From Psychrobacillus sp. BL-248-WT-3 (lineage in GTDB: Bacteria > Bacillota > Bacilli > Bacillales_A > Planococcaceae), in NCBI RefSeq assembly GCF_012843435.1, contig NZ_JABAFC010000009.1, positions 1 to 64,000 on the forward strand: a stretch of DNA of 64,000 nt, given 5' to 3'. Positions 59,408 to 59,683 of the stretch are shown in pieces. The notes below the pieces were generated by a model. That model did not search any database and was not told where the DNA came from. It worked only from the letters and a program-made list of their open reading frames with translations. Numbering within the stretch: the first letter of the stretch is position 1; every line of letters begins with the position of its first letter. Position numbers and translations under genes: made by a program.

Positions 59408-59431
59408 ATAATCCTCCTATAATAAGAAAAG

Positions 59432-59543
59432 CATAATCGCCTGTTCTGCCCCGACAGGCAAATGGGGAAAAGCGAGGAGGCAGTTCCTCAGCCACCGGAG
59501 CTTTTATCCATTTGACCCGAGGGGCAAGGCGATGAAGCTAGAC
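59432..59543. repeat. Intergenic repeat, full copy
   Basis: Begins CATAATCGCCTGTTCTGCC and ends GGCGATGAAGCTAGACA. The ends can pair (TCGCCT.. with ..GGCGA), and internal pairs occur (CAAATGG / CCATTTG; GAGG..CCTC). The first 65 bp recur at 59555 with two differences. Resembles intergenic repeats seen widely in Bacillaceae; function unknown. Confidence 0.85.
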
Positions 59544-59554
59544 ATCTTGAAAAA

Positions 59555-59619
59555 CATAATCGCCTGTTCTGCCCCGACAGGCAAATGGAGAAATGCGAGG
59601 AGGCAGTTCCTCAGCCACC
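59555..59619. repeat. Intergenic repeat, truncated second copy
   Basis: A direct 65-bp copy (63 of 65 identical) of the left part of the 59432 element, without the right half that ends in GCTAGACA. It lies between radA and the clpC terminator. Confidence 0.85.
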
Positions 59620-59644
59620 TCACATACTCTTTGTTGCACTATGT

Positions 59645-59677
59645 AAAAAAAGGCATTCCGGTGATCTCGGAATGCCT
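59645..59677 (-). terminator. clpC operon terminator
   Basis: The minus strand reads AGGCATTCCG-agatca-CCGGAATGCCT followed by a run of T, right after the clpC stop. Confidence 0.95.
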
Positions 59678-59683
59678 ATAATA

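Follow-up and report, generated by a model that had tools for sequence, protein, structure and literature searches.

A tandem repeat between clpC and radA of Psychrobacillus, probably a partial copy from a structured repeat family spread across Bacilli

Described repeat families and the copy between clpC and radA

According to the available portions of two reports (PMC6542083 and PMC3446304), bcr repeats, which belong to the Bacillus cereus group, are MITE-like; their mobility is linked to a TTTAT motif, and 40–51% of copies were found in transcripts. The family described here resembles bcr1 and the group A bcr repeats, as these portions present them, in a length of 100–400 bp, intergenic position, MITE-like character, tens to more than 100 copies, frequent placement in UTRs and a short A/T mobility motif (PMC6542083 and PMC3446304). 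The two differ in range, a comparison made by description only: bcr1 is given in the available part of PMC6542083 as confined to the B. cereus group, whereas the present family was found in at least 33 genera of Bacilli. By analogy, the bcr repeats are its closest functional likeness. REP, BIME and REPIN sequences with their RAYT genes offer a second parallel, as high-copy extragenic palindromes in tandem clusters, with a near-fixed flank motif and no gene of their own (in part from PMC2817692). The unit of the present family is, however, about 121 nt long, against 20–40 nt for a REP, and resident RAYT genes are flanked by other palindromes; GTAG, as in GTAG-type REP tags, is found in some tails only. 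Like MITEs, members of the family are short, non-coding, multi-copy and dispersed.

BOX elements of Streptococcus pneumoniae are modular, with ends (boxA and boxC) around a variable number of tandem boxB units. Modularity and variable tandem unit number are shared with the present family, in which, by contrast, the entire palindrome repeats in tandem and a tail comes after it; the comparison is one of layout. A stem-loop repeat family is also on record from a Bacillaceae genome, namely Bhal-1 of Bacillus halodurans, which the available text of Cozzuto et al. (2008; PMC2267715) gives as an undescribed 74-nt family of 36 copies and which, compared by that description, may or may not be related to the present family or a fragment of it. 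The best reading is that the family is comparable to bcr1 and to REP/REPIN repeats and is to be filed in neither.

The window, a stretch of 64,000 nt from Psychrobacillus sp. BL-248-WT-3, carries its copy in the spacer that separates the clpC stop codon and terminator from the radA start; the two genes lie on the minus strand. Two direct repeats of 71 nt (59426–59496 and 59549–59619), 123 nt apart, are 96% identical. Within them, a 65-nt core (59432–59496 and 59555–59619) differs at two positions, which agrees with the 63/65 identities of an earlier note on this DNA. That note had also read the first copy as part of a 112-bp palindromic unit with pairing ends and the second copy as truncated, and both readings held: the unit runs from 59432 to 59543 and ends in GATGAAGCTAGACA, and the second copy breaks off at position 71 of the unit. 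Folding of the 112-nt unit gave −52.7 kcal/mol, compared with −33.2 ± 3.3 for shuffled sequences (z = −6.0; 0 of 200 shuffles as good), whereas the second copy with its downstream sequence reached a z of −1.8 only. The window has two matches to a 22-nt core pattern, against none in 100 shuffles.

The full repeat unit (59426–59548, plus strand) consists of the left end GAAAAGC, an imperfect palindrome, the right end GCTAGACA and a 4-nt junction; its R2 match spans 59424–59545 and scores 129 bits. For the tandem second unit (59549–59619, plus strand), the R2 match spans 59547–59669 with 40 bits, homology by blastn being limited to 59549–59619. To the left lies the target flank (59415–59425, plus strand; ..CCTATAATAA), which adjoins the radA ribosome-binding site and is the counterpart of CCTATGTA in the empty site of relatives. 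The right flank past the truncation (59620–59650, no strand assigned) lacks the usual right-end tail and has CTATGTA, a sequence of the empty site, directly before the clpC terminator. This intrinsic terminator (59651–59683, minus strand), read from the sequence as a GGCATTCCG hairpin and T run, adjoins the element and is kept in the 18 orthologous spacers.

Copies, fold and distribution

A two-unit query returned 64 matches in the same genome (3.80 Mb in 91 contigs), many of them at contig ends. Core motifs, searched with up to one mismatch, occurred 127 times for the left side and 116 times for the right, against 7 and 1 for reversed control patterns, which puts the genome at about 115–125 units. 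Most units stand in tandem arrays of 2–5, with junctions of 2–5 nt and a period of about 124 nt. Based on these copies, a complete Psychrobacillus element would comprise one or more palindromic units of about 121 nt (GAAAAGCG...GAGCTAGACA) followed by a right tail of about 40 nt, in this genome ATTTATCCACAGGTTCAGAATTTTATAATTTCCTAAAC. The tail motif was matched 34 times with up to two mismatches; 30 of these matches were read as loci, and by an eye count the motif follows a unit in at least 24 of them. Many copies are without the tail; either it is dispensable or such copies are deletion products. Tail sequence differs in the copies of another Psychrobacillus genome, G002, and the right end of the element is thus not uniform. 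Some units (L024, L058, L059, L211, L215 and L224) carry a 35-nt hairpin insert (CAAACGCTCTTGTTTGCGACGAGCTTGCGCAGGAGCAG) at one fixed loop point, between unit positions 72 and 78; pieces resembling this hairpin form a short tandem beside a RAYT gene at L297 (about 2.1 kb).

Across the 61 genomes searched with a single-unit query, matches were obtained in 17 of 18 Psychrobacillus genomes, the present one included, and in none of 43 others. The earlier note had staked its element on further copies in the genome or in sister species, and both are present. A covariance model built from 39 Psychrobacillus units then found the family in 47 of 398 Bacilli genomes (E ≤ 1e-3), and a second model, built from 68 copies, in 62 of the 398 (E ≤ 1e-4), distributed over 33 of 145 genera. 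In a phylum sample of 299 genomes, three were positive, all of them Bacilli, and none was found outside Bacilli with the covariance model. Because these large searches scored 8–12 candidates per genome, the counts are lower bounds. Fuller scoring gave 97 copies in G281, 43 in G162, 41 in G202 and 5 in G015. Genus g100, with nine candidates scored, showed strong variation (one match in G198, three in G299 and nine in G360); such within-genus variation in copy number suggests bursts. Sequences of the TGTCTAGCTCCAGCGCCTAGCCCCTCGAGGTCATAAG kind presumably occur in many Bacillus intergenic regions.

Blastn searches of plasmid and phage collections, run in a distant-similarity mode with the L242 unit, returned no match in either. 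Against Rfam, the window stretch gave only sub-threshold matches to unrelated families at E values up to 5, and 16 loci of other genera gave only rRNA and tRNA-Sec at gathering score. No name or description of the family was found in Rfam or in the open-access literature, searched by words and by sequence strings on both strands; the available portions of PMC3733652 and PMC4666352 contain no description of it.

For analysis of the fold, 68 copies were aligned, 67 of them distinct, the rows including one wrong-strand match and related tandem copies. All 33 pairs had changed on both sides, 96.1% of cells were paired compared with 71.8% after shuffling, and the covariation score was 0.607, which shuffling lowered to 0.177 and sliding to 0.108 or less. 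Fitting the alignment to the model biases it towards structure; the stems are still readable by eye in single copies. The internal loops CGACARGC and GACCYCGAG are kept between genera. On the strand read here, non-Watson–Crick cells comprised 40 G-T and 17 A-C (28 and 8 outside Psychrobacillus), and this excess of G-T is modest evidence that the strand read here would be the folding one. The structured, non-autonomous element proposed in the earlier note was essentially the right interpretation; the change is one of scale, to a family spread through Bacilli.

Insertion sites and gene context

From 12 array sites with flanks, seven with coding or well-conserved left flanks were compared with the closest relative, G001. 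Five sites are empty in G001 (L007, L010, L012, L017 and L024), and two (L021 and L027) are filled in both genomes with fewer units in G001, from which it follows that arrays grow in place. A recent duplication or insertion had been suspected from the window alone; the empty sites bear out insertion, and the shared sites with more units here bear out local duplication. Left flanks vary little (AACAA, AATAA or AATTA).

Insertion places adjoin stop codons and terminators. At 44 Psychrobacillus places with enough flank, the left neighbour points towards the element in 22 cases and away from it in 20, a balanced distribution. In 19 of 22 co-directional upstream genes the stop codon is no more than 4 nt away from the left end; at L017 and L024 it stands at the identical place in the empty relative, so the stop codon was not brought by the element. 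Among other genera, for which 28 loci were read, one per genome, 11 of 16 tandem gene pairs have the element in antisense. At L250 (G334:C1 near 94095; locus positions 1501–1623) and L260 (1501–1626) it lies in the 16S–23S rRNA spacer, at L250 about 10 nt past the 16S 3' end. G334 has five same-strand matches of nearly equal score among those listed, perhaps one per rRNA operon. At L243, the element appears, by eye, directly 3' of an apparent tRNA gene end.

The clpC–radA spacer was compared across 18 genomes of the genus. Six genomes have it empty (82–84 nt), nine have an element or a decayed element there, and the remaining three (G002, G004 and G009) contain other or unclear inserts. The elements at this site share ends and orientation, but their cores vary from clade to clade. 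A clpC and radA tree requires a minimum of five changes between filled and empty (a hand count in which G002, G004 and G009 stayed open), and the site has been either hit repeatedly or vacated precisely. The inserts of G004 and G009 are about 200–410 nt long, and the site may thus attract several element types.

Mobilisation and competing explanations

We consider it probable, at roughly 0.75, that the window unit is a member of a Bacilli-wide family of short, non-autonomous, structured elements that are mobilised in trans, insert beside stop codons and terminators and build their arrays locally. An enzyme supplied in trans would insert the element at A/T-rich sites right after stop codons, or at an A-tract beside terminators, and would most likely recognise a folded single strand; both the mobilisation in trans and the folded strand as the recognised form we infer, whereas the copy number, the insertion context, the empty sites, the growth of arrays and the conserved structure are observed. 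Units would then multiply in place into tandem arrays with an identical 2–5-nt junction. On this view the window copy is a single insertion of this kind that duplication brought to 1.6 units and that is cut short on its right side.

As candidate movers, Y1 transposase genes (PF01797) were found in 39 of 61 genomes, among them 17 of 18 Psychrobacillus genomes with 1–3 genes each, mostly RAYT-like and of about 200 aa. Thirteen RAYT loci were read with about 1.5 kb around them (12 from Psychrobacillus, one from another genus); palindromes, where seen, were others such as GGTGCCTGGCACC, and the element was not found within about 1.5 kb at any of the 13. RAYT was for this reason rejected as a demonstrated mover; it could still act in trans. 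Psychrobacillus RAYT-like genes at L291, L292, L293 and L296 have upstream of them GGTGCCTGGCACC or GGTGCCAGGCACC, a palindrome whose arms are A/T-rich and which is likely the cognate REP of these genes. A second RAYT group (L287, L288 and L298) is flanked by repeats CAGAATAGT...ACACAGGGA, probably another REP family. Left and right core motifs, paired by eye among the places listed in the same genome, lie about 67 nt apart, or about 102 nt where a unit carries the 35-nt insert, and hence leave no gene between the ends. The transposase with matching ends that the earlier note had suggested looking for did not turn up, either by eye among about the first 100 places listed per core motif in this genome or at the RAYT loci looked at.

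A tentative candidate for the mechanism is single-strand peel-and-paste by a Y1 HUH transposase, as in IS200/IS605 and RAYT/REPIN, in which a folded strand is excised and joined 3' of a fixed target with no duplication. The nearly fixed left flank (AACAA/AATAA), a right end that closes with a matching motif, the strong single-strand fold with its excess of G-T over A-C on the top strand, and the intact look of the relatives' empty sites are all consistent with it. Orientation also bears on this reading. In G281, GC skew over 20 stretches placed the origin at 4.33–4.56 Mb and the terminus at 2.17–2.40 Mb; joining of arrays gave 73 places from the 75 matches listed of 97, and 60 of the 68 clearly on one arm run against the fork (five were ambiguous). 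In the same genome, 141 of 186 long ORFs (76%) run with the fork, and gene direction, which confounds the bias, could be part of its cause; replication orientation is for this reason a lead and not a proof. G162, with 26 places from the 42 matches listed of 43, shows no clear bias, 16 of 25 assignable places running against the fork. In G281, the strand preferred by G-T pairs lies on the leading-strand template, the reverse of the placement expected from IS608. Further against a Y1 enzyme, the Psychrobacillus Y1 genes are RAYT-like only, the 12 loci read being flanked by other palindromes, and G002 has no Y1 gene yet 14 matches of the element.

It is likewise possible, though doubtful, that the family is MITE-like in its movement, with short inverted ends on which a DDE transposase would act in trans, leaving an A/T-rich target duplication of 4–7 bp. 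The earlier note had suggested looking for target-site duplications. L007 is one exact site, where ATAA stands on both sides and removal of one ATAA rejoins the flanks at the precise length of the empty site; over 55 copies, target duplications are weakly supported. For these copies, the summed length of left flank recurring at the right was 180, against 158.9 ± 11.5 in permutations (p = 0.036), and flanking repeats of at least 5 nt were seen in 12 of the 55 where 8.2 were expected (p = 0.08). Since the left flank is nearly constant, these values do not separate a true target duplication from a fixed target whose motif the right end matches. GTAATAA at L050 and TTCTAAA in G002 stand on both sides of the element, and CTATGTA-like sequence lies either side of the clpC–radA element in several species. 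The ends in this genome are, however, not clear inverted repeats, and about the first 100 places listed per core motif hold no IS with matching ends.

A broader proposal, which we regard as speculative and rather unlikely in full, is that structured single-strand parasites form an undescribed superfamily across Bacilli, present in dozens of genera and even in 16S–23S spacers. These would move via single-stranded DNA of the replication fork into stop-codon and terminator sites with fixed ends and exchanged cores, by an enzyme other than the resident RAYT or that of an IS with matching ends.

Insertion through RNA, by a reverse transcriptase in the manner of group II introns, is unlikely. It was considered because of terminator-adjacent sites and replication-linked orientation, and the RNA-like covariation and the orientation blocks of G281 would fit it; no intron or like match in Rfam came from the window stretch or, at gathering score, from the 16 loci in other genera. 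Improbable, too, is a cis-acting RNA (a 3' UTR stabiliser, terminator or regulator) copied for its usefulness. Such a role would suit the covarying structure, the conserved internal loops, the place between stop codon and terminator and, for comparison, the share of bcr copies present in transcripts in the available part of PMC3446304. Set against it are the even use of both orientations to neighbours in Psychrobacillus, the alternation of presence and absence among sister species at the clpC–radA site, and the existence of decayed copies. Simple local duplication or an assembly artefact, to which the many copies at contig ends might point, is excluded by copies elsewhere, at orthologous sites and in single-contig genomes (G003, G008, G015, G281 and G202).

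On the reading of a Bacilli-wide, trans-mobilised family, a folded repeat present in up to about 100 copies per genome and in many genera of Bacilli shapes gene 3' ends, terminators and even rRNA spacers. The repeat coincides with contig ends in draft assemblies, and naming the family would clean annotation. Its mover, once found, would be either a new trans-acting transposase or a known one with an unsuspected client.
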